Source of the DNA: Isoetes taiwanensis
Taxonomy: Eukaryota > Streptophyta > Lycopodiopsida > Isoetales > Isoetaceae
Assembly: GCA_021234155.1 (NCBI GenBank)
Contig: JAJEKV010000052.1
Coordinates: 2,968,254 to 3,032,253, forward strand
Reading direction: 5' to 3'
DNA length: 64,000 nucleotides
How positions within the stretch are numbered: position 1 is the first letter of the stretch; every line of letters starts with the position of its first letter. The translations under genes and the position numbers were made by a program. A model generated the notes under the pieces. That model ran no database searches. It had not been told where the DNA came from and saw only the letters and a program-made list of their open reading frames with translations. Of this stretch, positions 2,832 through 60,042 are shown one piece after another.

Positions 2832-5800
2832 TCAACATTATAATCTTATTGCAATTACTACTATGGTTTAGATCATTTGATATTGAGTGTTGTCTTTCCA
2901 AATTTGTCGTCTCTAAATTATGGAACTATCGCTAATTCCTTGTAAATCTTGAGAAACTAGAGGTTCCTCTTCTTGCTACTCATCCTCCAGGATCATCGTT
3001 CAAGGGGAAGCGTCCATCCGTTGAGATGCAGCCTACAAGAGCAATCTAAATTGGACTGGCATTTGTTTGCACCTTCTTGCAATTCTATGAATTCATTTAT
3101 TCGTCATATAAAGAGTAGTTCCTGGAGTTTCGATATATGTTATGTACATTTAAGTATCTCATATTTGATGGATCTTGCCTTCCTAATAGGTTTGCTCCTT
3201 TGTTCACATTGTTCACCATTTACTATTCCCCTTCATCTAACTAGTTCTTAGATATCCAAATCATTCTTCAATCGTACCAAGTAATATCCCTTGGTGCAGT
3301 ACTATATCTTATGTATGAATACACAACACAATTTTGTTGAAATACTAGACACAAAGTTGGATGGCATTCTGTTATAAGTCTTAAAGAAAATATTGTAGCG
3401 ACATAGTTATAATGTTGTTTAAAAGTTGTTGCAACAACCCACTTAAATTGGACAAATGCTTCTCACAATTCAGTTGAAATAATAGTTAAAAATTTGGATA
3501 CCATTTTTGAAGCAGAACCATTTCTGTAAGTTGCATGATTCGGTGAAACTCTGTTTGATATTTTACCTTTCTCTATGTTAGCATCATCAAATTAGCGCAT
3601 TCGAAAGAGCTCCAGTAAAAAAAATAAGATGGAGGTACTTTGATGCATTCTGCATTTGTATTTTCTGCATTATGCTACTAGATTGAAGCATACCATATTT
3701 ATTATGCAGGTACCTTGATACTTTCAGCCCCAATTGTATACTTTCAGCCGTTCTTGCACAAGGTAAAATATTTGATGATGGCGAAGCTGCAACGGTCTCT
3801 GATGCATCCATTTCATTTTATTGCAGACGCACCACTATCTATGTATGCCATTTCAAAATACCCTCTTTAATTTGCGCTAGCTTATTGGTTTCTTAACCCA
3901 CCGAGATATGAAAGTTTAGTCTACTGGCTTGGAACATGTCCTTGGAGCGAATAGATAAGGTGAGATTTATTTATCCATGCTATGCACTATAGATTAAATA
4001 ACTCTAGAATTTAGCATTTTGAACTATGTTCTAGAGCTTGAAAAAATAGTTCTCTCATCGATCAAGATAGGCTGAGATATGGGTATTTTGCATTTCATTC
4101 CATTTCGTTCTTGCTATTAGTCAACCTCTTGATGAGGATTTGACTATTAATGGCTGTCTTATAGTAGGCAATTGGTTCACTTTCATCTTTGAGATAATTG
4201 ATTTTTATTTCATCCAATAAATTTGGCTTATTTTAGGGCCCTTAGATTGTCCTTTTCTTATTCGCATTTGGCATTTGGTGTTGGCAGGAGCACATGATTC
4301 TACTGCAATGGTTTCCAACATACAGCTAAAAAGTTTGTAAGTATAGCAGGAACTAAGTTTTCCTTATTCAAATATCCAAGGGCATTTTGGATGGAATGTG
4401 GGTTTGTAGAGCTGTGGGTTTAAGGTGGGAAAGGGCCATTAACACCATTTGGTTTTGCATAAAGTTATGATAGAGGCAACCTGGAAATGATACAATGCTG
4501 TTGCAGTCGCAGCCACAGCCACAGAAGTGACTAAACCTCCTCTACCCACATGGCATTACTAAATAGAATTCCTCATCTTTTTTGTCCTTTTGCATCTGTT
4601 GCATGCTTAGCTCTAAACAGAATTCTGAATTTCCTGACCTCTTAGGCAATGCATTCTACATGATGCATTTCTTTCCTTAATTTTGCCATGTATAGACTCG
4701 GATTGCATTTTGTTACTCTGTTCCAAGTGTCTTTGTCCCAGAAATTTATAGAGGTGTAATAGCAGTGAGTGAAGTGAGTATACGTTGTTTGTCTTCTTCC
4801 TGAGTATATTCGCTGGATGAACCAAGTTCCAGATATATGTAGATATATGTCTCATGCTTCCAATACAAATGTGTAGTTGAAATGTTATACAACAGGGAAT
4901 ATAATTCATTATGTTTCTCTCATGGATCTTATTCTGTTAGTTTAACACCATTTTACAGACATATGCAGGTCAATTAGACTGAAAGTGCTAAACTCCATAA
5001 ACATATGTAAGGTCCATTGCATGCCACTTTATGAAACTTACAGTTGTAAAGATGTTTCCTTAATCCCTCTCTATTTCTACAAAATTTTGAGTTTGAATTC
5101 CTCATATTTGAATTTCTTCTGTTGAATGTTTTCTTAATGGTAAGCAACTATTTTGACCTAGCTTCCTATTTTCTTTTCTTCACATATGGGTCAACTAAGA
5201 GCTTTTAATAGCATATGCACATGTTCCATGGATCCCTAAAATATCACAAGGAGCAAATACCTCTTACCAAATGTGATAACCACTACTACCTCTATTTCTA
5301 CGTCTCTAATTTAAAGGTAACAAAAATTTGAAATTATACATCCTGCATATGCATTTTCTAGGCATCACTATATTGAGACCATGATGTGATGTAGAACAAA
5401 ATGGGGGAAGCCATTCTTGCTTCCCCCTGACCTGCAGAATCTGGTTGCGTAATGGCTGAGCCCATTCTGTTCTACAACATCAAGGTAAGCTGCTTATCAG
5501 ATTATACAAGTTTGTTAAGGCGGTATGTCATTCTGCTTAAGAATGAATCAAGAAACGGACGAAATGCTCATTCAGTTACCTTGACGCATGATAGTAGCTA
5601 AAATTATTAGGGCAAAATGCAGAATCAAGAAGCATAATTTATTATAGTTTAGTGCCAAAAAGTGGTTCCTATAACTCAAAATGGATTACAAAAATTGTGC
5701 ATCTCAGGCCTTCCATTCTAAAGGTCTCATAAGTATAACATTTTACATTGACGACATTGAATAATTCTCCATAATTTTGCGAAAATGCACATGTTTACTA

Positions 5801-38425: not shown

Positions 38426-38461
38426 GCACACCTAATTTGCTCAAGCACAAATACTTTCACC
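38426..38461 (+). repeat. Direct repeat left of small ORF a
   Basis: GCACACCTAATTTGCTCAAG... matches 39114-39149 (GCACACCTGAATTACTCAAG...) in the same orientation, with a few differences over 36 bp. Confidence 0.7.
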
Positions 38462-38573
38462 TAGTTCTCGAGCCCAAGAAACTTGAGGTAAGTAACATAC
38501 ACATGTACATACAAATTATGTGTTATACTTGTACGTGTACATGATACTTGTAGAAGCCCAATAATGGCCCTAC

Positions 38574-38656
38574 ATTCTACACCAATAATTCACATCAATA
38601 ATTTTACTTCACTATAAAAATAGCTCGACTCGGGGGGTAGAGGTCATTCATCTTTC
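38574..38656 (+). promoter_or_regulatory. Conserved promoter of small ORF a
   Basis: CCAATAATTCACATCAATAATT, TTACTTCACTATAAAA (TATA-like, about 38611-38618) and CATTCATCT just before the ATG are shared almost base for base with 50873-50950, upstream of small ORF b. Conservation across two copies whose coding parts have diverged more suggests function. Confidence 0.7.
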
Positions 38657-38899
38657 ATGGCTTCCTCGATGCCTCGTCCAGAGCACATCCGATCTTTCAA
38701 GTGCTACCTGAGCTACAACGATCTGAACGAATGCGCTAGAAATGGTATTAATCTTGATCCATGGCTCCAATCTAAAGCTGATGGTCCTGCTAGTGCTTGC
38801 AAGAAGCTCACTCGTGTTGTGGTCCACATTTACTGGCTTCCTGATCAGGAAATCTATGAGCTAAATAGCATCACGAGCTTTGGTGTTGATGATGAGTGA
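38657..38899 (+). CDS. 80-residue small ORF a, unknown
   Basis: Intact single-exon ORF of 80 residues (MASSMPRPEHIRSFKCYLSY ... ITSFGVDDE). It is homologous to the broken copy at 50951-51183: both have (I/F)KC(Y/S)(L/M)S, LDP(W/Y)L, LP(D/E)(Q/H)...YE(L/I) and an acidic DDE end. No known domain recognised; no signal peptide or membrane segment. It lies 0.65 kb from the 3' end of the methyltransferase gene and is flanked by 36-bp direct repeats. It is probably an element-borne gene, since its relative sits beside the other DUF7869 transposase. An accessory or regulatory factor is possible; its function is unknown. Confidence 0.6.
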   Translation: MASSMPRPEHIRSFKCYLSYNDLNECARNGINLDPWLQSKADGPASACKKLTRVVVHIYWLPDQEIYELNSITSFGVDDE

Positions 38900-39113
38900 A
38901 TCTGTATTGCTAAGGATATAGTAATGACATGAGTACCTATGAAGTATGTATTACAATCAATGTTATCAGTGATGACTACTGTATGTGTTTATGATATAAT
39001 AATGGTATGAGCACCTATAAACTATGTAAGGATGTAATAGCACATTGAATATTGTTTGATGTATCATACCTGAGTGTAGTGTAAGGGTGTGCTCTTCGAC
39101 TTCCAGTATATCT

Positions 39114-39149
39114 GCACACCTGAATTACTCAAGCACAAAAACTTCTACC
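39114..39149 (+). repeat. Direct repeat right of small ORF a
   Basis: Partner of 38426-38461. Further right, 39208-39236 holds a perfect hairpin (AAACGGGAGTG / CACTCCCGTTT). The interval 39150-39549 is otherwise non-coding. Confidence 0.7.
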
Positions 39150-40260
39150 ATATTAAAATCCACAAAACATGTTTTAAAAGCATACAACACTGTTGCAAAT
39201 TAAACGGGAGTGTTGCAGCACTCCCGTTTCAAAGATTCCTTTAGAAAAAACACTTCACTTCAAAAATTAGGCTTTTTTAAGAGAGGTTTAAAGTTTCAGG
39301 ATTATCAATTTTTTTTGGGGCCTATTTTTGGGCTATTCTTTGGACACGACTTTGGTGTTTTGGAGTTAAGCACGTGAAAATAGCAGAATTGAGACATGAG
39401 CACGTAATTTTATAGAGGTGGATGTACAAAAAGCACAAATTTAGTAAACATAACAATAATAATTTCATTACTGTTTTTGTGTTATATCAATAATGGCCAA
39501 TAATGGCAATAAATAGTAAATGTCAATCAGTAGCCACAACAAAAATCCGTCAGAGATCTAAATTAAAGTCTTCTTCATTCTTCTTGCTGCTCTCAGCTTG
39601 ATCAGTCTCTTTCGTTTCACCTTTCTCTGGTGACTTAGGCTTTTCTGTGTTGGTGGCTGCTTCAGGTATTGTAGCTAGAGCAACTTCCTTAAGCTCTGCA
39701 AATGTAGCTTCGTCTTCCAAAGAGCTTGTGAAAGGAGGCTGTATCTCCGAAGATGTCATCTTAGCAAAATCAGAATTAGACTTTGCCCCCAACTCTTGAT
39801 TCTCGTCTGGTAGAGTTGGTAAGGCAGAAAGTCTCATCTTGATGAACTGTACAGCCTCCTTATCAATGTCAACAGCTACACAATTTCGGCCCTTCTTAAG
39901 TGCACAAGCAATAGTTGTACCAGAGCCAGAAAATGCGTCGAGCACCTAATCTCCTGGACGTGAAAACATATCCAGAAGATGGTTAATCAGCTTCTGTGGC
40001 TTTTGGTAGTGCTATTCTTCCTTGTGCACTAGGGTCCTGCAGCTTCTGCAACACAGCTGGAAACTCCACCACGTTTGAAAAGTTCTGGCAAGCCGCTGTG
40101 TTGAAGTGTTCCATTGTACGTTTCCCATCGAAACTCCAATAAGCCACATGGAGATATTCGACCTTACTCAGCAGTCGCGGGCCACCACCATGGTAATTAA
40201 TATTTGTTTTGTACCTAAGGAACAATTCTTCAAAGAAGGATTTAAGTACAGCCAAAAGAA

Positions 40261-40276
40261 ACGTATTCCGGAATAG
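40261..40276. repeat. GTATTCCGGAATA palindrome
   Basis: A single copy of the element-a palindrome core, at a probable intron of the methyltransferase gene. Confidence 0.75.
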
Positions 40277-41096
40277 AAACTCCTAAGAAGAATTTGAACA
40301 TGCTACAGCTGTAACTACAAATAAAAGAAGGTATTAAAAACAAGAGGGCTTGTGTTTTCCAGAATAAGTGCTCACCAAACAAGATTTTCATAACCAGCTT
40401 GCGCAGGCGAACCAAAATGATTCTTAAAGCTGGCTTCCACAAGGCCGGATTGCATGCTAGAGTGAAATACAACCAGACCTCCAATGTTTTCTTTGTGGTA
40501 ATTTGTTTTATACCGTCGACGAAAGCATTGAACTCGAGTTTTTGAATGGCTGGTCGTCAGAAGGGCCGTCTTTCGGCTTAAACCCATATGGAAGGTCAAA
40601 GAATTACCAAGGTAAAATCACGGGGGCTTTATTGATTCGGCTAGTTTGGTGCGATCCACCGGTGTACTATCTGAAGCAGGTTGTTTTGGTCGTACATTGT
40701 AAACCGTTCAGAACGGAGGGCTCGGTGTCCAAAAACACGCCGTCGCCCGTCCTCCTTCGCTTACCGTCCGACCGGATGCATAAAGCCCTCCGGCAGGTCC
40801 TTGTTTTTCTTTTTGCTCTGCAAGAAGAAACGTCTTAGTAACACGAGGAACAACAATTTGAAAAACAATTCATCATACCCAGCCTTCAAAATTTGGTGCA
40901 TATTGGACAATCCTTTCGTCCGAGGTTGCTACAGGGTAAAGCTCTTTGCACCTTTCCCAGCTGTCGACATTTAACTGCTCCATTAAGCATGTTTGACATG
41001 TGATAACATTTTTCTGGCTGTATTATTGTACGAACATTAGAAGGAGAAAACTAAAAAACAGCAACAAGAATGAATAATTTGAAAAACAGTAACATA

Positions 41097-41331
41097 AAGT
41101 GTATTCCAGAATACACTTCGGCCCTCACACTGTAAGGCAAAGTGTATTCCGGAATACACTTCGGCCCTCACACTGCAAGGCCATGTGTATTCCGGAATAC
41201 ACTTCGGCCCTCACACTGTAAGACAATGTGTATTCTGGAATACACTTTGTCTCTTACGTGAGGGCCAAAGTGTATTCCGGAATACACATTGCCTTTCGTG
41301 TGTGACCCACAGTGTATTTCGGAAAACACTT
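41097..41331. repeat. Array of six 22-bp palindromes, 43-bp period
   Basis: Copies at 41097-41118, 41140-41161, 41183-41204, 41226-41247, 41268-41289 and 41311-41331. Consensus AAGTGTATTCCGGAATACACTT, a perfect palindrome in copy 2. Spacers are about 21 bp (CGGCCCTCACACTGTAAGGC), and the spacer orientation flips between copies 4 and 5, so the array is itself roughly mirror-symmetric. It lies in an intron of the methyltransferase gene. Further copies lie at 43310, 43352, 43105, 43628 and 43682. Confidence 0.93.
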
Positions 41332-43104
41332 CTTCCTAACAAACAAAAAACCCAAAGTGGCATTCTTACTTGTGGAGCTCTTTGGACATTTCTTCTAGTG
41401 TGAATCCCTTGTCAACAACCTTTTGCAGTAGCCTTTCTAGTATATCCATATCTGTGAAGCCCTGCATTTCTCGCCAAACAGTTATAGTCATTTCCTTTTT
41501 GGGAACGTCGGATCCTTTTTTCTTTTCCGAGACCTTTCCTTTGCTTTTCAAATCACCACGCTCGAACATGGTGAAGATTTCGTTTTGGAGGTCCCAAATC
41601 TGCAGAAACAAAAGCGATGTCGATTTGGGAAAGTTGCGGTGTATTCCGAATCTGTAAGAACTTACTCTGCTCGCCGTCTCTAAAGGCTAGTTGGAACCAG
41701 TTGTCATGTGGTATTAGAGACTGCCGTTTGTTAGCCTCGTCGTATTTAAGGCAGCACTCCACAGCACACGCTTCCTTCAGTTCCAGAGAGTATTGTGGTT
41801 TCTTCAAATCATCTCCATATTTTTCTTTAAATATTACATATTCCCTGTGCATGAACCTGATTTTGTCCACGAAACTCATTTTAAGCTTATATTCGTTGTC
41901 AGCATTGTGCGTGTTGGCAACGATTTTGGCTTCTTCGATCAATCAAACCCGAAATGCTTATTATGAAAGCCTGAGAGATACCTTGGATTGTGTTTCTCCT
42001 TGTACAACTGCCTCCTTGCTTTGAAACTGTGGTTTCCCCCAAGGACATAGTGCATGTAGGTGTCTGCTTTTTCTCTGTCGTAGTCCTTGGGGTCAATGCA
42101 CTGGGATCTATCAACAAGAACAACAATTGGAGCAACATGGGCATTGGGATTGCTCCTTATTCTGTCCTTCAGATTCTTAAGTGGTCAGCATAAATTTTGC
42201 GAACCTGAAGGGGGCGCACACCATCTGCATTCTTCGGTGGCAACCTCATGGAAGTTACTGGCAAGTATATTACACCTTGCACATACTTGTTCTGATTAAT
42301 TGCTTCCATCCTCTCTGAGGTCTTGTCCACCTTTTTTTCTTTAATGGCAACCCCAGGTGCCTTGCCCTTTCCCTTCTTCGTTTTTGGTTGTTCCTCAGGA
42401 TTTTCTGCCACTTCAAGCTGTTGTACCTTCCGCTTTTTTGGTTCCTTAGCGGCTATGGTGGCTCTTGGCCTGCTAGGTTTCTTTGGCGGCACTGGGAGAA
42501 CTTCCTCTTCTTGTTCTTGCGACCCTCCATCTAATGATTCCCCGGAAGTACTAGCAGAAGGTGATGATCCTGATCTGCCTGCATCTGAACACTCGGACTC
42601 ACTGACAGGAAAGTCCTCGCTTGTACTCGAACAAACCTGTCTGATTAGTGAACACAGGCTACGTTTGGTCCGGTAGTGAGAAAAGAATTTGTACATTGTC
42701 TGTGGTTGCACACTGACAATTCGAAAGAATGCGATATCTACAACAATGAAGCCTTGGGAGGTTTTGAAGGATAGCCTCCCCGACTGACCTCCTTGTCCGG
42801 CAACATCTGAGACCTCTTTTATTGTCCCGAGGTTAAAGAACTCGGTGTCGGTGTACCTTTTGTTCCCAGCACTTTTACAGACGTACAGAAACGTCAGTGT
42901 GCTGTATTTTCCGTCCGCACCCCTGGTTATGTACCACTGCGTTTGAAAGTTTTCGTATATTGCAGGCTCGTCCGTGTCAGCTGTTTTTTTCTGGGGGTGT
43001 GGGCGCTTCACCTTCAGAGTTTTCTTTGGTGCTTTCTTGCTTCCTTCCTCCCTTCCACTGAAACGTTTAAAACAACAATGTTAAGACATGAAATGGGACG
43101 AAAG

Positions 43105-43121
43105 CTGTATTCCAGAATAAG
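43105..43121. repeat. Diverged element-a palindrome
   Basis: CTGTATTCCAGAATAAG, a partial copy near the 5' end of the second methyltransferase exon. Confidence 0.65.
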
Positions 43122-43309
43122 ATTTACTAATCTTGTGCCCTAAATGCCACCAAAAACATAAAAACAAGCCTAAATAATGTCGCTACAACACAATTTTTTA
43201 TGCCTTAATTGGACTAAACAGTGGTAGATTTAACATAAAACGAGTCTGTTTCCGCTAAAAAGTGGTGTGTTTAGGTGCAAAAAAACAAGTGTTTTCAAGA
43301 AAATAAGCC

Positions 43310-43373
43310 AAGTGTATTCCGGAATACACTTTGCACTTAGCCAGAAGCTCAAAGTGTATTCTGGAATACACTT
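43310..43373. repeat. Two 22-bp palindromes in methyltransferase intron 1
   Basis: 43310-43331 is AAGTGTATTCCGGAATACACTT and 43352-43373 has T in place of C at the centre. Spacing is 42 bp, as in the six-copy array. Confidence 0.92.
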
Positions 43374-43448
43374 TGGCTTACGAAAGCAAATCAGGAAACA
43401 CACGAAAGACGTACTATGTACTTTAATTGCTTACCTGTCCATTATTTT

Positions 43449-43775
43449 CGCTATGTAAATCGGAATACAGCAAATCGATGTAGATCGGAAGGCGCTCGGG
43501 CTGGCGACTAAATCTCTGGGAGCGGAATACGCAACTGAGGCGCTCAATTTTCCTTTTTAAAGGTAGGCCACTGTCAGTTGTGTTTTTCTATGTGATGCGG
43601 AATACGTCTTGTCCAAATACTCTGGCAAAGTGTATTCTGGAATAGCATCTGTGCACATACAGCAAATGCTGCACACAAATTAGTATTCCGGAATAGCATT
43701 TGTATTGTTGAATATCATTACTCCAATCGACTTGTGAGTTACTAACACGTCCACAATTTTTTGCAGGTGTTTAAC
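43449..43775. promoter_or_regulatory. Divergent intergenic region of element a
   Basis: Lies between the first methyltransferase exon (minus) and the transposase (plus). It contains GCGGAATACG half-sites at about 43521 and 43596, palindromes at 43628-43648 and 43682-43697, and a TTTAAAAAGG box (minus-strand reading, about 43552-43561) that could be a TATA element for the methyltransferase gene. TTTTTTGCAG at 43757-43766 looks like a splice acceptor before the transposase coding start. Confidence 0.55.
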
Positions 43776-46706
43776 ATGGTTAACCGGTTCGTGAACAAAC
43801 TTCCACCACCATTTGTTTGCCCAAGTACCTCTACCTCAGATGGAACACAAGACGGAGACGCTTCTTCAACACCTACCTCGACAAGGTCTTTGTTGCTTCT
43901 CGAAGACACTCCGAGTCCAGTAACTAGTAGACTGCCACCACCTTTCCAACCCTCTCCCAGTCCAGTAGGAAACCGGCTGCCACCAGCTTTCCAACCCTCA
44001 CCTGTTGCACGTAGCAATCTTCCACCACCATTTGTACCATCCCCCGACACTACAAATGCTCGACCTGAGAAAATTTTTCGAAACAGACTACCTCAGCCAT
44101 TTGTAGTTTCTACATCTTCACTTCCACAAACAAGGAATACAGCACGTTCTGAAGACTGCGAGATTCTCCACAGCTTCTCCCACCAAGACTTCACTACAAA
44201 TGAAGACGACCCTGCAGCATCCACTCCAATTCACACAAACGTGGTGACACATGGGTTTGCAGAATTTCAGTCTGCTCTAAGAGACATGTTTGAACGAACT
44301 CCTTGTGAAGAAGCTGCAACAACATTTGCTGGTCCATCTCCTTCATATGGTGGCCCATCTCCTTCATTCAACACTGTACCTCCGCCTTATCCGGGTACAG
44401 CTTCACGTGGTTTGTTCTCCTCTACAAGCACACCACTAAGGGCAGAGGAGGTCACCCCCAGAGTAGAACTCTCTTAAGAAGATGAAGACACCAACGAAGT
44501 GCAACGAGATTACACATTCTCTAGCCAGTCCACCAAGAAATTCAAGGTGGATTATGGTTTGAGAGCATGCTCCCTCAGAAGAAGAAGAAACCTTATGGAC
44601 GAGCATAAAATGAGAAGACTTTTAAGAAGTAAATCTTTGCTCATTGGGTTGCATCAACAAATTTAACATGGCTAAATTACGAGCAATTAGAGACAACTTC
44701 AGTTCAATGACATTGGCTGACAGAATGCCTACTTGGCCTATCATGTAAGACCAGACCGCCTTGACTTCTTGCACTACATTAACCGGTCAAGAAGTTTGCC
44801 GAAATGCTTTATGGTTGTCCACCGTTTAGGGTCCACCAGAATGTCTAGAATACACAAAAGACTGGACAAAAATCCAGCAATTGATGATCATTGTAGACCA
44901 AGAAGAGTTGTAACCATGCATGCCCTTGCTGCTGTGTCATGGATGGAGAAATATTTTAGAGAAACATGTGAGAAGTCTGCCTAACAAGAACATGTATCAT
45001 TTAACTGATAACATCACCAAAAAAGATGTTTTTAATGAGTACAAAGAGACTTGCACCCAGGCTTCAAAGACATCTCTTACTCACACCTCACAAGACCGTG
45101 GAAAAGTGAATTCGGTTTAGTGAAAATTCTGGGAGACATAGAATGTCCATTTTGCTCAAGGTGTGCGTAATTAAAGAGTCAACGAAACCGCAAAGACAGA
45201 GGTCGAAAAGAAGTAAGCTCATGTTCTCTAATCTCTTACTTGTTTTAAAGAAAATGCTTTGACCTGATTTCTTCTACGAGATATTGTGCAAAGTAACCTT
45301 GCCCGACATCGTGAACAACAAGCAAAGAGAGAGAAGAAAGCTTGCCAAACACAGAAAAAAAGCTCTTGAACGTCCACTGCAATATATGTCTGTTGTGATT
45401 GATGGAATGGACCAGAAAAAAACTACTCTACCGCATTTCTTGAACATTCCTAAAGATGTGCCAGAGGAATGTTTTGTTATGGTCCACCTTGTAGGAGCTA
45501 TGGTCTTCAAAGGAAGTCTAAAGTGCAAAGTATTTTTGACGTATCCAAACTTGCATGGTGACCCGAACCTCACAATTACAATTCTTAACAAGGTCCTGTG
45601 CGAGCAAGAGCAATTACCACCAGTGCTTTACCTGCAACTTGACAATACTACAAGGGAGAACAAGAACCAAACACTCTTTGCGTACTGTGCCATGTTAGTG
45701 GAGCTAGGGATCTTTAGAAAAGTGAAGCTGGGTTTCTTACTTGTAGGCCACACTCATGATCAAATTGACCAAATGTTCATCAGATTTTCTGTGCGCCTCA
45801 GAAGGAAGAAGGCTTTCTCTCTTCCTACTTTAGTTCGAATTATTGAAGATTCTTACACTCCCACTCCAGTGATCGATCTCCTTAAAGAGACTGCTGATTT
45901 CAGAGAGTTTATTTTCTCTCAACGTTCAGACAGAGAACAAGCTGTGAACAAATTGAATGATCTCACCTTTCAACATCACATCAAGTTCTACTTGAAGGAT
46001 GGCCAAAGTTTCTTACAGGGGAAAAAGTATACCACAACTAAGGACTGGAGTCCACCAGAGGGACTACGCTTCCTTAAATATATTCCAGACACTTCCTTCA
46101 TAGAACGTGCTGAGCAACTTCCTCTCAAAAATCCTAAGGAGTCCAAGCAGAAGAAAAGTACCCCAGAGTCATCCTTAAAAGCCATTGAAAATGGAATTTC
46201 CTCAGGCTTTAAGTACTTCTTAGAAGAAGATCGGATGTGGTGGAGTAATTTCTTTCTCGAACAGAAAATTGTTGTGAAAAATATAGCTCTAAGACAGTTG
46301 CAAGAACCATTTCAATGGCCTAACACCTTCTATCAACCCCAGCACCAAGCAGGTCCAAGCAATGCTACATTAGCACCTGCAGTAGAAGAAGACGAGGATC
46401 GAGTCATGTACCTCGGACCAAGACGCAGGAATGAGCCTCAAGGTAATATCACAGAAATTAACAAGGGTATGCTTATTGCTCTTCCAACTGAGGAGGATGA
46501 CAAAGGTCGACCTTTCTGGATAGCAAAAGTGCTTGATACAGTCAAGGAGGAAGGCTTAGTCACTAAACTCAAGATTCATTGGCTTGCAACACGCTCAGAA
46601 AATGCTTTTGAAGGTAGATATGAGTTAGAAATGAGAAGCCAAGGAAAAGGGAGAAAGTCCAAGAAGGTGGGTTGTAGGGATGAGCTGATCCTTAATGACG
46701 TGACTA

Positions 46707-49539
46707 TCCTATATAATAAAATTTTAGTGTTTGTCTGTTGTGTATGTCGCCCTAGATCGGATGGCTCAGATTTGATTTAGATCACGCGACGGTCCAGATC
46801 ACGCCTTAGATCGGGGTGTGGTTTTTTACGAAGGCCTCCTAGGGTTAGGAAGGATCGGGTGGCTTCCCAAAGATCGCAGGAGCTCTGCTTCTATGGAAGA
46901 AGCTCGGCCTCTTCCATCGGGAGTTCCATTTGGAAAGTGGAAGAAGCTCGGCCTCTTGCATCAGGAAGCCACAGCCGAGTTTTTTTTGCCTTCGAAGTCT
47001 TTCTGCTTCCATAGAGTTTTCTGGGTGGTAACGACTATGGCTTCTTCCGGACGTGCTTCTGGAAAGTACTTTGGAGTTTCTTCTACCCTATGCTTCGCCT
47101 TATTTCTTAGCTCCCCTTCTTCAAAGGTGCCGTATCCCCGGCTCTTCCAACTGTAGCCACTTCGATCCACTTGTTTCTATTTCAGGTAAACTCTTCCTAG
47201 AAACCTATGATTTTCACTACCCCTTTTTTGATTCCGAATCTTATGTTTATAGGAAAAATTTCTCCAGAAACATTCTATTTACTGTGGCATTACTAATTTT
47301 TCAATACCTAGAAGTATATCTGCTACACTGCTTGATCATTGTAGAGCAGGGTTATCACGCTTTATTGTTTTTTAAGGCACCGCCATGAACTGTGGAAGAC
47401 TTTGATGTAGATGTAATTGTTGCTTTATATATGCCTGCTAGATATAGACTTAAATTTGTTTAAGTCGAGTTTAAGGAAAGGGGGCGTAGAAGTTTAGGAT
47501 CTACATCTTTACAGGGCTTCTAAAAGAAGCATTTGTCTGAAGCATTGGTTCCACTTGCTAGAAGCATTTTGTAGGTTGACGACGCCCTTCTTCCTATTAA
47601 TTTTTTTCTACAGAATTAGCCTTTAGTTTGATGCGAAATTGTTAAGCTAACAAATAAAATTGAAAGGAAGAAAGCAGAGATCGTACAGATTTGTGACGGC
47701 ATAATAGAATGCACATGCTTGAATTATATAAGTCTTAGCTGTTTTGCATCAAGAACAGAAGACATAACGAATTTGGAGGTATGTTTATTGCTCCTTTTAG
47801 TCTTCTGCATAAATAGAATAGAAAAGATGGCATCTGATATTTTTTAGTATTGCAACAGAATGCACATCCTTGAATAATGAAAGTCTTAACCGTTTTGCAT
47901 TCCCATGGCATTCCATATCATATTATCTGAGACTTTTGCTAAATGTTGCGACCTTCAAGCATCCAATCCTTATTAGTCTCTTTATTAGCCATAGTTGCAG
48001 CCTTCTTTTAGTATAGTCTGGCAAAGCCTGGTTGTGCAACCATGGAAATATTATCCTTCTTTGAAGACAATTGCCCATACAACTGGTATTGATCCAAAAT
48101 TACAAGTTACAGTTAGTCAATTTGTTGTTTATACATCCTTCAATTAAATTTGCTTTGGTTGCAATTTCAGCAGAAGTATGAGTCGAAAAATATGAGTCCG
48201 TGAGAAATGCTATCCTTGATAGATGTAAGAACTTTGTTGGATCCGTTTATTACAATGATTTACTTTATTGGTTCCGTTGAAGATGTAATTTTAATTGCTT
48301 GCCAGGAGCCCAACTATGCTGTCTCCCGCACTCCACTTATGTGCATTGATTCTAAAAGGTTGTGAAATGACTATGAGAGACCCATGTATTTTGAATATAC
48401 AACAATATCCTTTGTGCCTGGAGTCGTGATGGTTTTAATTATCAGGAATTCTGCTTCGTACCATGCAAGGAAGCACCATACACATTCACATAGGCTAGAA
48501 CATATGCAGATTGAAGAGTTTTGCGGCACTTTCTAGAATGACAGTGTTATTTTGTGCATTTTGCAGCGTACATTATTCCATATTATAGTATAGTTTCCCT
48601 CTCTATGGCCAACACCTAATTGCAGGGTATAGATTTTGGCATGTTATAAATTATAGGTTTACTAACATGTATAAGCAGATTCATGGGACATCACCATTTC
48701 TGTGTTCCGTTTATAGGATACATTATGTCCTATGTAAAGCTGGAAGATAGGAAAGGACACATAGCATCACCATTACTATGTTCATTTCATAGGTTACTTG
48801 CTTCGAAACTTGAGCTGAGATCCTGTATGGCACCTCCTTGCAATCTAAGGTGAATCAGACCATTGTTCAGGTTATTTTGAAATTCTTGATGATTTTGTGA
48901 AAAGCCACCATGCAGGATTGAATTCTTCAGCCTGTGTACAGGGCATGAAATTTTGAAGAAATAGCATCGAACGGCGCAAATAGTCCGGCTTCTTTATTAC
49001 CTTAGTATTTGGAATGTTCTTTAGGGCTTTTTTTTACATTTGTCGCAGGCTTAATGGCAAAAATAAGAGGCACTGATTGATTGGGTTCTATTTTGTGCTG
49101 GGAGGAAGCAACTCGCTTTTTGTACATAACACCTTCTGCAGACCTGTTGTGGAAGCTGCGCATAATGGTTATTACAACAAGATTTCCATAATGACCAAGT
49201 TTTTTGATAAGTTATAGAAAACATCCACAATCAAAAGCTTGACTATGGACACATTGTCCATCCATAGGCTAGAAACACATTTTACATCATCTTTGAATGA
49301 TAAATAAATAATACACCTTAATACATCTAGGAGAATACAACAACGGTTAATTATTATCATAAGTGAACACTCATTTTGCATGATAAAATGCTTTATTTAT
49401 TGTGGGGAAACAAAGTTCAAGGACCACAATGTTTGCATGGTATCTTCTTATAACATTGAAGAACCTCAAGTCACGAAACATATATAACAATGTAAAATTA
49501 TTGCCATGGACTGCCCACCGAAGGTGGGCAATTTTCTAG
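46707..49539 (+). mobile_element. Helitron, 2.83 kb, inside the transposase gene
   Basis: 5' TCCTATATAATAAAATTTT directly after an A (46706). 3' stem TGCCCACC (49512-49519), loop GAA, stem GGTGGGCA (49523-49530), then CTAG (49536-49539) followed by T (49540). It sits exactly between A and T as Helitrons do. Its excision rejoins the codons ACT-A|TA-TTG in frame. The interior is non-coding; a GC-rich 5' part (46800-47160) gives chance ORFs. No Rep/helicase. Confidence 0.93.
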
Positions 49540-49733
49540 TATTGTGCTATGATTTTAAATTTAAATCTGACAATCGTCTACGCCAGAGGACTATCAATTT
49601 GCTTAAAAAAGCTTGTAATTACGAAGAAGAGGATGAAGAAGGTGGTGGCAATGCTTCACCATCTGTTGATAGTGATGAGGAAGATAACTCAAGCACTTCC
49701 TCTAGTGACAGTGAAAAAAGTGAAGGTGATGAG

Positions 49734-50335
49734 CAGGGAATAAATTACTAATCGCATATTTCTTAATAGCCAGAATGACTTTAGCTAAACTTGCTCGATA
49801 TTAATCCCAAAACTTTCTGTGGTTTAGCTAAACTCTACACAATTTTCCTCTCATACTTTCTAGCATTTAGCTAAACTAACCGAAACACCATTCCAAAAAT
49901 TTCTATGGTGTGGCCACCAGAAAACATTATACCAAATTACTATACTTTTTTCAATATACTCCACTTATTTTAGTCATTTTCTTTATGAAAACATTCTAAA
50001 CTAATGCTAACTAGCAAAGTATAGGACTCAAATTAATTCATAATGCTAGAAACTAAACTACTAACATATATTTCATATACACTAGAATGATATTAGCTAA
50101 ACTAGCCCGAAATTCATTCTAAAAGTTTCTATGGTTTAGCTAATCAATACAAAATTTCACTCTCTTACTTTCTAGCATTAGGCTAAAGACCTCCAGGGTT
50201 GGTGCAGTCCTGAAAAAAGTTAAGCTAAAATTATTATTTTTTTCTCAATGTTTTCCATTTACTTTAGCCAATTTTTTTTAAAAATGTGCTAAAAAATCGC
50301 CAAATAGCTAAGTTTAGCCCTTAAATTATTCCATG
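49734..50335. mobile_element. hAT-like MITE, 602 bp
   Basis: The 8-bp target duplication GTGATGAG is at 49726-49733 and 50336-50343. Ends CAGGGAATAAATTA and, inverted, CATGGAATAATTTA. An 8-bp duplication with CAGGG-type ends is the hAT signature. The interior is AT-rich with an internal duplication (TTAGCTAAAC...TTTCT(G/A)TGGTTTAGCTAA). Inserted in the C-terminal acidic codons of the transposase. Confidence 0.85.
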
Positions 50336-50415
50336 GTGATGAGGATGGCATAAATGAATATGATGACGTCCTGGATCCCTCTCTCATCACTCCTCACACT
50401 TTTGTACATAACTGA

Positions 50416-50872
50416 GTCTTAGAAAAAGACTGTAAATTTTGCATGTGAATATGAAGATTCTATCTTCAAATTTTGAGAATACTACAGTTTCAGTTACAGA
50501 CTTACTTCAATGTTTTGTTAAATATTTTATCCTCTGAAATTAGAGTTTCTCTCGTAAAATATACTTCAAGGACATTCTATTTGCTAAGAAAAGTGACACT
50601 TTAAAAAAGTCAATTCTTTCGTTGCACAAAAAAATTAGTCACTTTGGGGGGGGTCAAAATAGATTTTCATGCATCTTTTTTTTTTTTAACCTCGTTTTAT
50701 CCTCTTTTTGTAAAAAAAAAAGGAATCTTTGAGGAATATTCCTTTCACTCTCGTTTCGATGATTTGCTCCCGTTTAATACGCAATCTTGTTATACACATA
50801 TTCATACGAAAGATGTATTATACTTGTCTGTATACAACAGTCTTATACACGAGCAATAATGGCAGTAAAGTC
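50416..50872. other. Non-coding spacer between elements a and b
   Basis: AT-rich with a G8 run at about 50645 and T10/A10 runs. Elements a and b should have termini around here, but I could not identify a matching inverted repeat. Confidence 0.5.
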
Positions 50873-50950
50873 TACCCCAATAATTCACCTCAATAATTCT
50901 ACTTCACTATAAAAGCTTCTCACTTCGGGGCTAAAGTTCATTCATCTCCC
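50873..50950 (+). promoter_or_regulatory. Conserved promoter of small ORF b
   Basis: Matches the region upstream of small ORF a: CCAATAATTCACCTCAATAATT, CTACTTCACTATAAAA and CATTCATCT, then the ATG. Confidence 0.7.
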
Positions 50951-51183
50951 ATGGATTTTTCGCCTTCATCAGTTCACCACATCGAGGCGATCAAGTGCTC
51001 AATGAGCCATTCTGATCTTGTCGGTTGCCTAGACAGGGGTCTTCTTCTTGATCCCTACCTGCGAAGAAAAGCTTTGGGCGCTGAGATTCGTTGCCCTCAG
51101 CCAATTCGTATCTGATTTTGCTTCCTGAGCACAATAGCTATGAGATATCAGGGATCACCACTACAGCTAGTGATGATGAATGA
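50951..51183 (+). pseudogene. Small ORF b, frameshifted relative of small ORF a
   Basis: Starts MDFSPSSVHHIEAIKCSMSH and aligns with small ORF a, including LLLDPYLRRKA. A stop occurs at about 51113, but a shifted frame continues YLILLPEHNSYEISGITT... and ends DDE, matching a's LPDQEIYELNSITSF...DDE end. One small indel therefore broke it. It converges on the transposase of element b, whose stop is 140 bp away. Confidence 0.7.
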
Positions 51184-51321: not shown

Positions 51322-54300
51322 TCAAGAGTTCTCATCATCGTCGTTAGCTTCTTTAGCCACTAATTCTTGCAACTGAGCCCCCACACTACTGGGGATCACC
51401 ACTGACAACGGCCTGGTCTCTACGGCCCAACCATAGTCTATTGTTTTCTGGCGGGTCATTAGGATTGGGTCTCCAATTCTTGCTCCAGCAATCCCTATAC
51501 TCATTGCATATGAGGTTCCCTTTCTGGCAACAGGCTCAAACCAAGAGACAAACACCTCTTCGTAATGTGGGAGATTAGGGTCCTGTATTGGGTCCTCTTC
51601 GGCAAAAGCCATCCACGTCGGGCAGTTATCATGTGGCCTGATTAGCAAGAGCATTCCTTTCTTGACATCTTGGTAGGGGTCGAATATTTCAACTGGGTTC
51701 TTGGGTCTACCCGAGAAAGGCCCTACGTAATGAGATGCTTCAATGTGCTCATCCACAAACACATTTTCGGGTTCTTCCAATGCACTTTGCCTGGTGCTGG
51801 GCCAGAAATCCTGAATGACAGCTCTACCGGGCTGCACGTCCCCAAGCACTCGCAGCAAGGTGGACCAGTAGTCAATAACTTCATTCATATATGTGTTGGA
51901 CCATGAGTTATCGCCAGCTCTAGAAATAGCTGCCCAGTTCATCATGTACTTGGCAATAGAAGCTCTCAATGCACCTATATCTTTCAAGCTCCCATATGGC
52001 TGCACGACCTTAGGTGACCCTCTCGGAATCATAGGTAAACCTTGGGCATCCTCCTTCCACATTCTGATTCCCTTTTCAGGGAGCCACTCCCTATGCCCTG
52101 ACCTCATCTTACTAGTGGCCATCCATCCTTCATGCAGAACTTGAAGAGTAGAGGTTCCAGGGGACCACATAAACGGTCCTTCTTTTCAGGGATAAAACCT
52201 TTCACGAATTCCTTCCAATTAGAAACCTCTGACACAAGGTAAGGTGAAGGAGACTTTGAACTACACTGCCTGAAGAGTTGCATAAGCTCTGGAATAGTCA
52301 ATGCATCTGATCTCATTAGAGTAGAGTAGTTTCCAAAGAGGGCATCTATGTCATCGTGGGTGTGTCCAACCATCATGAATCCCAGCTGCACTTGATCAAA
52401 GACACCTAACCAAACCAAGTATGACAAGTAAGAGAAAAGATATCTATTCTTATTTTGATCTGAGCAATTATCTAGCTGCAAGTAAAGCCTCCTAGGCAAC
52501 TTGTTCGGTACCATGGGGCCTTTGTTAGGAGGAATAAAATCATTTCTACTGCCATTTACCATTTTTGTCCTAAGGGCATCTGTGTTTAAAATTGCTCCAC
52601 CCTTTTTGCTTTTCGGGGACGATCTGTATCTCTCAAATGGCCCCAATTATCCTCAGATTTATTCTCCAGTGTCGTCAAGGTATGATTCAAGGATCCCACA
52701 TGAAAGTTAGAATCATCAGGCCAGAGGTCCAGTGAGAAGTGGCCCAAGGCACCTATACCATGGCCGTGCATGAGAGCACCTGTAACACTCACCTTCAGTC
52801 GTTCACCCCTCCATACAGACTTTGCTAGCTTTTCTAGACGAGGGACCATGGTCTTATTCTGATCCATCTTATCATGTATAATGGTTAAAGCGTGCTCAGC
52901 AGATCTATGAGACAAAGCTCTCCAGGACCAGTAAAGGCTCCTACATGAAATCTGGGCCGTCATATGTGATTTTCTCTCCATTGCAAGTATCCTTCTTTCA
53001 TTTGGATCTCTGGTCTTAGCAAGCTTTTCCTTTATGACAATACAGGTGTTACACTTAGAAAATGCTATCCTTTTAGCTATTGCCACCTCTGAATGATTCT
53101 CTTTTCAAGCAGACAGAAATGACGAAGGAGAAATATGCTTGCCTGTCATCTCTGTAACGGTAATATCTACTTCTTGGTGTATATCCTTCTTAGTCAAGAC
53201 TGAAGGTAGCCTCTTAACATTCTGTCTGCTACCCTCGCTCATAATTTTCGAGCGGTGTGGCATCATCTCTGCGTTTTCATCTATGAACATAGATAGCACG
53301 GCATTGCCAGCCAAAGTATGAGACCTTGGCTTCTTAGAACCACTATTTCCGTGCTCAGCAATTCTATGGCCATCATTGAAGAGCTTCTTCCACTTGTAAA
53401 AAGTGGAAATGGGTATGCCATAGGCTTTATGCCATGCTTTCACGCACACCTGTTTGTTATTCAACATCAGGTTGCGGGCTACACCATTTTCAGAGCAAAG
53501 ATCTAGCATGTTATATGCAAAGGTTGTGCGCTCCGAGGACTTCATGTTCCAGTAAAAGGTTCTCATGCAAGCTATCTCCTTGGATGTAAAATTTGCACAG
53601 CATCTTTTCATGCAGCACAGTGATGACCTGAAGTCTAAAATAGCCTCAGCACTAGTTTTTCTTTCACATTTGGTTTGTGCTGGACGTGTCCTGTGTCTCC
53701 GATTGACCATGCGGTAAGGTCTCTTTTTGGTGATGCCAATTTCGGGTCTAATGGAGTAAGGTTCATTCTCCACATCCTTCTCCTTCACTGCAACCACGAG
53801 AGTAGAAACTGGAATGTTATCAACGAGCACGAAGGCTATGGGCCATCTTACAAGGTCATGCAATTGGGGCATTTTTGCACAGGCTTGGCAGCGCATAGAG
53901 ATCTTTTCGGGCATTGGAAATAGGCTCATGATAGTAGTAGCTATCGAGCCTTCCCCTAACTTCACGTCAGCGACAGCATGGTTTGGATCGGCAAAAACGA
54001 TAACACCATAACCGTAAGCCATGTGGCAGCATTCATGCATGAGTGTGCATGCCTTCTCAATTAACTCATGTCTAGAAAGCCCTTGCATATGATTCATCTC
54101 ATTATTGGCTAATCTCTCATTGCCTCCGACCTGCCACTTTATGCATTTAATCTGTCCTGGTGGCGTGCAAACTTCTTCCTATCTCACAAGCTGACCATCA
54201 ATGTCCTTCTTGTACCACAACACAAAACTCCCCACAGCTTCACCAATTTTTTCTATTTCCAGCTCGGGAATTGGTAGTGGCAACTATCCATCCAAAACAT

Positions 54301-54452: not shown

Positions 54453-54729
54453 ATCGCGGCCGCGATCTTCGTAAGCAAATAAAACTCTACTACAAAAAGA
54501 CAACTGGGAGATAAAAAAATGCTAAGGACTTTCGCCACCGCGATCTTATCGAGCATAGGCAAGAACGCGGTCGCGCTTTCTGCAAGCATTCACACTAGCT
54601 GTTTAGATAAGAACTCATGTGGAAAACACATGTCGAGATTAGCATGTGGTTTCGACTCATACTTGTAAATATATCAGATTTCTTAAGTAAATAGCAAGTG
54701 TAGATGGTTGAAGATATCGCGACCGCGAT
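54453..54729. repeat. ATCGCGGCCGCGAT palindromes, proximal set
   Basis: Copies at 54453-54466 (perfect), about 54533-54545 (partial), 54563-54577 (AACGCGGTCGCG) and 54716-54729 (ATCGCGACCGCGAT) lie just upstream of the element-b transposase. GC-rich islands in AT-rich DNA. They belong to the same family as 58653-58921. Confidence 0.88.
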
Positions 54730-58309: not shown

Positions 58310-58564
58310 GTACTCAATAAAGCCCGCCGGCCGGTAATTAATACGGCCGGCGTGTAATTAATGCGCCCGCACGTACGGCGTCATTATGGCTGGCACGCCA
58401 ATCCACGCATCATTATGCTCGGCGGGTATTTAATTTCCGCGGCCGCGTTCCTATATAAATTCGCGCCCATCAATCTCATATCATCTCAGACAGTTTTCGG
58501 CGACCGCGATTTCTTCAGCGCCTAGCGCCTTTGAGCTTGCAGCGGCTTCAAGAACCTCCCTAAA
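58310..58564 (+). promoter_or_regulatory. GC-rich promoter of the element-b divergent gene
   Basis: Repeated GGCCGG and TAATTAAT(A/G)CG(G/C) motifs at 58325-58440, a GCGGCCGCG core at 58438-58447, and a TATA box (TATATAAAT, 58452-58460). The ATG at 58565 would give a leader of about 80 nt. The base composition is very unlike the surroundings. Confidence 0.65.
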
Positions 58565-60042
58565 ATGACCGGATTTTCGTATTCAGCCGGCGCCCGCGAT
58601 CCCATGGCACCTAAGACTCCCTCAGAGAAGGTAAATTCTAACATTTCAGCTCAGCAAGATCGCCGCCGCGATCTTGCTTACTAGATTTTGTAATGTTTTG
58701 ATTGCTATAGCTGCTCAGCAAGATCGCGGCCGCGGTCTTGCTGAGCATAGTTTTTCTTTTCTGAGTAGTAGTATAGTAGCTCACCAGGATCGCGACCGCG
58801 ATGCTCGTGAGCAGTTGTATTGTTTTCTTGCTCTGCTTAGCTGCTACACAACATCGCGGCCGCGATAGTGTGGAGTACTATTATAGTTGCTTGGAAAGAT
58901 CGCGGTCGCGGTTCTCTTGAGTAGTTTATACTTTTCGTTGTACAACATTATGCAGCCTATCAGGCACTCACCACAGGCTTTTGTTTACAGCCCTTGCTCT
59001 GTTTCATGGACCGGATGTCGAACCCATCCGTATTATAACCCCTTCTAATGAACGCAAATGGTGTATAGAGATTGCACAAGCAATACCACACAATAAAGGT
59101 GACCGTAGAAAGGACCTGTGCCTGTTCCTGCGAACTGGAAAGAAACCTGAGGACGTTGAACAAGTTGGCATAGTGGTGGCAATGTGGGAAGGCACGAAGA
59201 ACAATGTGCAAGATGCTATCATATGCAGCATCGAGGACACACACCAATTGCAGTTCCTGGAGTACATTCTAAAATGGCGCAATTATATATGACCGACAGC
59301 CAGCAAAATGAACAAGCCAGCCACAGGGAAAAACGTCCCAACATCAGCTAACAGTTATGGATGGGTGTTGCCATCTTATGAATCTCTCTCTTTGTCAGGT
59401 ATAAAGGGAAACAAAGACATCTTGGTAGGGTTCCCGGCATGCAGAAATGGTTTGTCCACAGACAAGAAGCCTCCGAGTTGTGCTTTGAAAGCAGTTCGGG
59501 ACGAGAAAATGCCCTCGGTGATGGACACCAACTGGCTAAGAGCCGTGGCCAAGAAAAAAAGTGTGAAGCCCATTGCTGCTTTGGGAGAGCCTTCAGCATC
59601 AAAAACAGTTGTTGAAGAACCACAATCCACGATAAACCCCTCCGGTATTATTAACCCTACTCTTCCTCTTGCTTTAAAGGCCCCAGATACCACTACATCT
59701 GGTGGATTTATTCCAAAAAAACTTACTACTTTCAAAATTAACCTTAGAAATCTGAACACTGACAATAGCCCGCAGCCCAGCAGTTCTCAAACCCCCCCTT
59801 CTGTTACGGAAGCCTCCTCTAGACTAGCATTGACATGGCCACACGCACCTGCCATTCCAGTCGAGTTGAAGTTCAATCCGGAAGAGGAACGCAAGATGGC
59901 AGAGCAAACCACTCAAAAGCTTGAACAGTTTAAACGGTTTTACCCCTTAGGGGTTAATTGGTTTACCAAGATTTCTATTTTTTATTGTGAACCTGCACCA
60001 GCAAACCTGACACACCAAATGCGATCAAATGACACAAGAGGA
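58565..60042 (+). pseudogene. Divergent partner gene of element b
   Basis: The first exon (58565-58630) encodes MTGFSYSAGARDPMAPKTPS and ends at GAAG|GTAAAT. The intron contains five long palindromes. Coding resumes about 58990 (HGPDVEPIRIITPSN...KDLCLFLRTGKKPEDVEQVG...LEYILKWRNYI), stops, and continues at 59308-60042 with a Pro/Ser/Lys-rich linker and an acidic end (FNPEEERKMAEQTTQ). Its place and orientation equal those of the ParB-methyltransferase gene in element a, and the N-terminal domain has the same predicted size and a similar end, but identity is too weak for me to claim homology. No methyltransferase motifs are seen; the 3' part may be lost. Splice phase is uncertain. Confidence 0.5.
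58653..58921. repeat. Five long ATCGCGGCCGCGAT palindromes in intron 1
   Basis: Copies at 58653-58678, 58714-58745, 58780-58811, 58844-58875 and 58890-58921. The second is a nearly perfect 32-bp palindrome (CTCAGCAAGATCGCGG and its complement, one mismatch pair). Centres are about 64-66 bp apart except the last (46). Inner cores vary (GGCC, GACC, GTCC-like) while arm pairing is kept. Confidence 0.92.

Follow-up and report, generated by a model that had tools for sequence, protein, structure and literature searches.

Between positions 39186 and 50791 of a 64,000-nucleotide stretch of the Isoetes taiwanensis genome (GenBank assembly GCA_021234155.1, contig JAJEKV010000052.1, positions 2,968,254 to 3,032,253 of the forward strand; hereafter the window) lies a DNA transposon that carries a bacterial-type DNA-methylating protein besides its own transposase. 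This is a complete copy, with two later inserts, of what we call family A, and its ends were set by comparing the window with nine other copies (L numbers below denote pieces of the genome fetched for such comparisons), in which homology stops at common points. The ends are imperfect terminal inverted repeats of 25 bp that start with AACA (39186..39210 on the plus strand and 50767..50791 on the minus strand) and are common to the copies, as in class II elements bounded by terminal inverted repeats. Directly outside them stands ATAC on either side (39182..39185 and 50792..50795), and a perfect 4-bp target site duplication (TSD), read by eye from the flanking sequence here and in the related families described below, was found in all seven family-A copies in which both ends could be located (ATAC in the window; CTTA, AATA, CTAA, ATAT, AACA and TAGC elsewhere); in the other three of the ten copies examined, one end could not be traced in the fetched pieces. 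One element each of families B and C likewise has a 4-bp duplication, so that the TSD shows the fixed length expected of such transposons. The joined flanks of the window copy match a paralogous stretch at 38426-38663 on both sides of the insertion point; this stretch contains a single ATAC there and represents an empty site. A preliminary description of the locus had drawn the element from 38426 to 50415, and neither position was retained: 38426 lies outside the transposon, as does all DNA up to 39185, because the empty-site paralogue starts there, and the transposase stop codon ends at 50415. Elements of family A are DNA transposons, probably of the cut-and-paste kind.

The transposase gene lies on the plus strand and is read as two exons with a short intron between them. 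Exon 1 (43776..45212) is 72.7% identical to exon 1 of copy L003, with its frames broken in the window copy, and exon 2 (45281..50415), delimited by comparison with other copies, is interrupted by both inserts and ends at the stop codon. The DUF7869 domain (PF25273) at 45467..46033 matched its profile with E=8.4e-50, in keeping with the transposase-like gene first proposed. An AlphaFold2 model of the protein was of low confidence (predicted local distance difference test, pLDDT, 33.5), leaving conserved acidic and GHTHDQID motifs as the only features that bear on a DDE/D transposase fold, and a literature search on 'DUF7869' found no paper. A 4-bp target duplication has been named as a feature of the Sola2 superfamily (PMC3627910), a likeness in TSD length, and we do not file the element there. 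Judged from its sequence, the window copy is dead, because frames are broken in both of its genes and the two later inserts split the transposase gene.

The second gene diverges from the first on the minus strand and has six exons, with GT-AG introns at matching places across copies, save for exceptions in single copies (for example the acceptors in L029, L030 and L033). Exon 1 (43435..43442), which holds the proposed start codon, comprises only the eight bases ATGGACAG, and the same eight bases followed by GT were found in four of the nine pieces searched (the window, L029, L030 and L035). Exon 2 (41666..43057), located by copies and profile matches, encodes an N-terminal domain, a linker and a putative ParB-like domain; exons 3 (41370..41599) and 4 (40879..41017) were placed by copy comparison, as was exon 5 (40376..40817), which covers the region of methyltransferase motif IV; and exon 6 (39550..40214), supported by both copies and a profile match, encodes motifs X and I (FSGSGTT) and the C terminus. 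The frames of exons 2 and 5 are broken in the window copy. In L006 and L007, intron 2 is open in frame, so that exons 2 and 3 form one frame of 568 amino acids, with the splice sites intact.

Both signatures from which this gene had originally been recognized, GGNHSFKAR and DAFSGSGTT, were confirmed, and the Pfam N6_N4_Mtase profile matched the window exon with E=2.5e-7 and the joined exons 3-6 of copy L031 with E=7.7e-19. In beta-class amino-methyltransferases, motif IV lies ahead of motif I and has the consensus (D/N/S)PP(Y/F/W). The order of motifs and the profile match place the present protein in this class, but its motif IV departs from the consensus, reading DLPY in seven of the eight other family-A pieces (the eighth, L033, bears a deletion at this point) and DIPY in families B and C. 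This recurrence rules out the earlier view of the motif as a degraded DPPY. KsgA and Erm carry NLPY or NIPY, which makes methyltransferase activity plausible despite the unusual residue. Exons 3-6 of L031 also matched CcrM (PDB 6pbd; E=3.5e-11) and the phage methyltransferases of phrog_67 (1.9e-29). The protein shares the beta-class fold and motif order with CcrM, which has DPPY in place of DLPY and is not known to carry a ParB-like domain. In phages, tblastn with the methyltransferase gave distant matches only (36 records, with 22-27% identity among the 15 matches listed), and in viral contigs three stretches fitted a pattern, none of which was confirmed. A Faecalibacterium phage methyltransferase proved to be a short gene adjoining a terminase gene, so we name no ancestor for the enzyme.

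The N-terminal part of the protein is best described as putatively ParB-like. The label rests on the GGNHSFKAR motif, on phrog_1033 (5.2e-6 in two of four members) and on TIGR03764, whose score (6.9e-4, again in two of four members) is far below its cut-off; phrog_723 gave 0.046 in one member. Pfam ParB_N (PF02195) had no match anywhere in the genome, a PDB profile search with the ParB-bearing exon returned no meaningful match, and the AlphaFold2 model of this exon was of low confidence (pLDDT 36.8). For this part nothing was found in phages, and plasmids gave one poor match.

The preliminary description had asked whether the two genes are linked elsewhere and whether full copies share their boundaries, and on both points the results were favourable. 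Our searches covered a genome of 1.66 Gb, whose 93 WRKY matches point to a plant, scored the best candidates only, and yielded lists of at least 85, at least 130 and at least 150 distinct places, on which linkage was counted. When two transposase lists, merged into 190 places, were set against the 130 places of the methyltransferase exon, all 27 pairs within 20 kb were divergent, with the genes 2.96-4.03 kb apart (0.60 pairs expected by chance); with exon 6 as the probe, 26 of 27 pairs lay in opposite orientation. Full copies are bounded by the same two ends, flanked by 4-bp TSDs. The DUF7869 and ParB-methyltransferase genes are enclosed by a single pair of inverted repeats and travel together, and linkage and shared ends jointly support the interpretation of a transposon that brings its own DNA-modifying enzyme. 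Between copies, the median ratio of non-synonymous to synonymous substitution (dN/dS; codons with gaps or stops dropped) was lowest in methyltransferase exon 6 (0.054; 107 pairs with dS >0.1, copy C1034 being counted twice as two pieces), followed by exon 5 (0.124, 34 pairs), transposase exon 2 (0.161, 10 pairs) and methyltransferase exon 2 (0.192, 74 pairs). By this measure the methyltransferase exons are under purifying selection, and the low ratios between copies imply that the protein was kept working while the family spread.

The non-coding DNA of the element holds a family of palindromes, as the preliminary description had noted for the intergenic region and the methyltransferase introns. 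The 14-bp form, GTATTCCGGAATAC, occurs at 3,720 sites in the genome and a 22-bp form at 1,810, the reversed control giving 0 in each case. The core TATTCCGGAATA, scanned with up to two mismatches, has 14 sites in the window (mean of 3.2 in five shuffled windows), of which 13 lie inside the element and all of these outside the listed exons. Two are in the shared intergenic region (43632..43696; sites at 43633 and 43684), three in intron 1 of the methyltransferase gene (43107..43370; sites at 43108, 43315 and 43357), six in an array with 42-43 bp spacing in intron 3 (41096..41331), and one in intron 5 (40263..40276), identified by the core scan and by conservation in eight copies, with a weaker site at 40355. 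Elsewhere in the genome, 12 palindrome places were hand-picked among the first listed, all on contigs that had no listed gene match, and in each of the 12 the sequence around the palindrome also matched the element.

This placement bears on the idea that the transposase binds the palindromes and that they serve transposition, as the TnpA sites of Spm do. Some gene-poor pieces (L043, L050 and L060-L062), probably deletion derivatives that have kept their arrays, hold palindrome arrays together with an element end, which speaks for such a role. In the window copy, however, the left end is 1.08 kb away from the nearest palindrome and the 7 kb next to the right end (about 3.7 kb once the two inserts are discounted) are free of sites, and in families A, B and C the sites are concentrated on the methyltransferase gene and on the intergenic DNA that the two genes share. 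With the sites so far from the element ends, we dropped terminal transposase sites as an explanation and regard a role in transposition as very improbable.

A set of 236 distinct family-A sites (147 in arrays and 89 single; five duplicate loci left out) was collected with a filter of at most one mismatch, which itself favours an intact core. Spacings below 100 bp numbered 143, and 102 of them fall at 41-43 bp, close to four helical turns. Such regularity would also arise from tandem growth alone, and VANDAL arrays, too, are described as gaining and losing repeats fast (PMC5735166); the arrays could thus be neutral tandem repeats, or RNA hairpins of introns, with no protein partner. Against this, letters in the two arms of array sites covary at offsets 13-15 (z of 5.4, 3.4 and 3.0), single intron sites hold the core better than the rest of their intron (0.99 against 0.82 in intron 5, eight copies; 0.94 against 0.87 in intron 2, twelve copies), sites also occur in intergenic DNA, and several families repeat the same layout in other letters. 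We consider neutrality, if anything, a shade less probable than a role in transposition.

The families in question were found by examining the DNA upstream of four diverged DUF7869 genes for a second gene. Family B (L037, L055) has a transposase 53% identical to that of family A, a divergent methyltransferase gene, related inverted repeats and the TSD CTAC; its palindrome, GTATGAATTCATAC, is found between the two genes and in the intron that follows the ParB exon. Family C (L040, L057) has a degraded methyltransferase gene, the TSD AAGT and 20 perfect copies of GTATAAATTTATAC, which occurs 12,556 times in the genome (control 17). A second C element (L059) carries both genes and 20 sites, and 35 of 52 motif-C spacings measure either 28-35 or 61-64 bp. 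All three palindromes have the form GTAT-N6-ATAC with a family-specific inner hexamer, and together the specific forms account for 16,340 of the 40,900 GTATN6ATAC sites of the genome. Of the three motifs, nine family-A pieces contain A alone; motif A does not occur at the B and C loci, and the B locus includes one perfect C site. The three families share one layout, each with its own palindrome in intergenic DNA and methyltransferase introns; it would seem that every family recognises its own DNA and marks it.

Motifs that are specific to a family and clustered in non-coding DNA recall the VANC proteins of VANDAL elements, which are Mutator-type transposons. VANC binds short motifs that stand in tandem arrays within the introns and intergenic DNA of the VANDAL family to which it belongs, and brings about a loss of methylation (PMC5735166; see also PMC10398659). 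The present system resembles this anti-silencing arrangement, with an enzyme added: as reported for VANDAL, there is an accessory protein and a private short motif that differs between families, although the motifs of VANC21 are arrayed in one orientation (PMC5735166) whereas those described here are palindromes. A further difference is that the accessory protein is here a ParB-like methyltransferase and that anti-silencing, demonstrated for VANC, is proposed for it.

A deep lineage of DUF7869 elements, lineage D, is represented in the same window. Its transposase gene, found by profile match, lies on the minus strand at 51322-53104, its palindromes ATCGCGGCCGCGAT at 54453-54729 and 58436-58912, and a divergent accessory gene at 58921-60042; the stretch at 55-58 kb may be an insert. 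With up to three mismatches ATCGCGGCCGCGAT has 10 sites in the window (0-2 in shuffles), and it occurs at 965 sites in the genome (control 0). In two other copies (L067, L068) the transposase and accessory genes are likewise divergent, with sites between and beside them. The accessory protein is weakly similar to the methyltransferase (N6_N4_Mtase, 0.022; BLASTP, 4e-5 in one comparison), with motif IV reading DMRS in L067 and DIRG in L068 and a motif I that lacks GSG. If the accessory gene is homologous, lineage D would have lost the enzyme and kept the targeting. A private palindrome and a divergent accessory gene without recognizable catalytic motifs are what one would expect if the accessory protein were a VANC-like, sequence-specific binder whose methyltransferase fold either contributes to DNA binding or is dispensable. 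The homology of lineage D, however, depends on the weak scores just given, the median dN/dS of family-A exon 6 (about 0.05) is the lowest among the measured exons, and D(L/I)PY and FSGSGT are kept in families A and B. We therefore think binding without methylation unlikely, though a far stronger contender than the two alternatives discussed above.

The reading we prefer, to which we would give a probability of roughly 0.55, is that these DUF7869 transposons carry a self-recognition module in which the ParB-methyltransferase binds and marks the palindromes of its own family. The ParB-like protein would bind its palindrome as a dimer and, on arrays with units about whole helical turns apart, would do so cooperatively; the beta-class domain would place N6-methyladenine (or N4-methylcytosine) on or near the palindromes. 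This methylation could prevent host cytosine methylation from closing the promoter, or regulate the two genes; non-autonomous copies with arrays could profit in trans; and new families could arise through joint change of protein and palindrome, a route already proposed for VANC and VANDAL. The preliminary description had supposed that the enzyme marks its own cis-sites or counters host silencing: family-specific palindromes lend support to the former, while the methylation itself, like the binding and the anti-silencing, is something we infer from sequence. Methylation is the weakest step, as lineage D apparently manages without. A fuller version, which we hold more tentatively and at somewhat less than even odds, is that each DUF7869 family pairs its own ParB-methyltransferase with its own 14-bp palindrome (GTAT-N6-ATAC in A to C) in helically phased arrays, that bacterial-type methylation is confined to these arrays and opens them against host silencing, and that the enzyme, though not the targeting, disappeared from a deep lineage.

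Several observations weigh against this reading. The persistence of palindromes in lineage D, where motifs IV and I are apparently lost, suggests that methylation may not be the core function. The regular spacing of the palindromes may merely reflect the unit length of tandem duplication. The genome-wide excess of GTATGAATTCATAC is small (64 against 11 in the control), and the open form GTATN6ATAC shows none (40,900 against 40,905). L056 holds motif-C palindromes, with no methyltransferase detected in 7 kb, and L058, a related DUF7869 locus, showed neither the methyltransferase gene nor a palindrome family in 6.9 kb. In the first eight contigs listed for motif C, six regions match DUF7869 elements, and two (L064 and L066) match no reference element. 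Finally, the central CG of the family-A palindrome reads CA or TG in 53 of 147 array sites and 51 of 89 single sites, a change that host CG methylation reaching old copies would produce.

The idea of self-marking is not new. The transposon Sola1-1_Ec32 of the algal genus Ectocarpus carries a ParB-methyltransferase accessory gene, such genes are cited for green and red algae as well, and the authors suggest that the protein binds and marks its own DNA (PMC12477816, 2025). Set side by side by description, the two systems agree in an accessory gene on the strand opposite the transposase and in the joining of a ParB-like part to an N4C/N6A methyltransferase (PMC12477816), and they differ in the plant host, DUF7869 transposase, 4-bp TSDs and family-specific palindromes found here. 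Other mobile elements also carry DNA methyltransferases, including Mariner elements in algal viruses (PMC3627910) and retrotransposons (PMC5890265), but as far as these sources describe them the enzymes are different ones, C5 cytosine methyltransferases included, in other element classes. Among the literature matches listed for transposon-borne methyltransferases, the Ectocarpus paper was the only direct precedent, and none of the matches listed described family-specific palindromes of such transposons, which we do not claim to be unreported. What sets the present case apart is the plant host, a DUF7869 transposase with 4-bp TSDs, and candidate targets that differ by family. In the passages available from the Ectocarpus paper no target is named for the supposed marking (PMC12477816), and the private palindromes, present in several related families of one plant genome, are candidates for such targets, so that the guess becomes directly testable. 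If the reading is correct, the module would join VANC as a second example in plants of a transposon family and an anti-silencing protein that alter their code in step, and it would offer natural DNA-recognition pairs.

The two inserts of the window copy are of different kinds. Helitrons begin with TC, end in a hairpin followed by CTRR, and insert between A and T. The larger insert (46707..49539, plus strand) begins with TC, ends with the hairpin GCCCACC-GAA-GGTGGGC and CTAG, and is flanked by A and T, and is therefore Helitron-like by its ends as read from the sequence. The smaller insert (about 49746..50334) has an imperfect direct repeat of about 20 bp at its borders and holds repeated TTAGCTAAACTA-like units. 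Two similar small open frames flank the transposon (38624-38899 and 50897-51115), which inserted upstream of the second.

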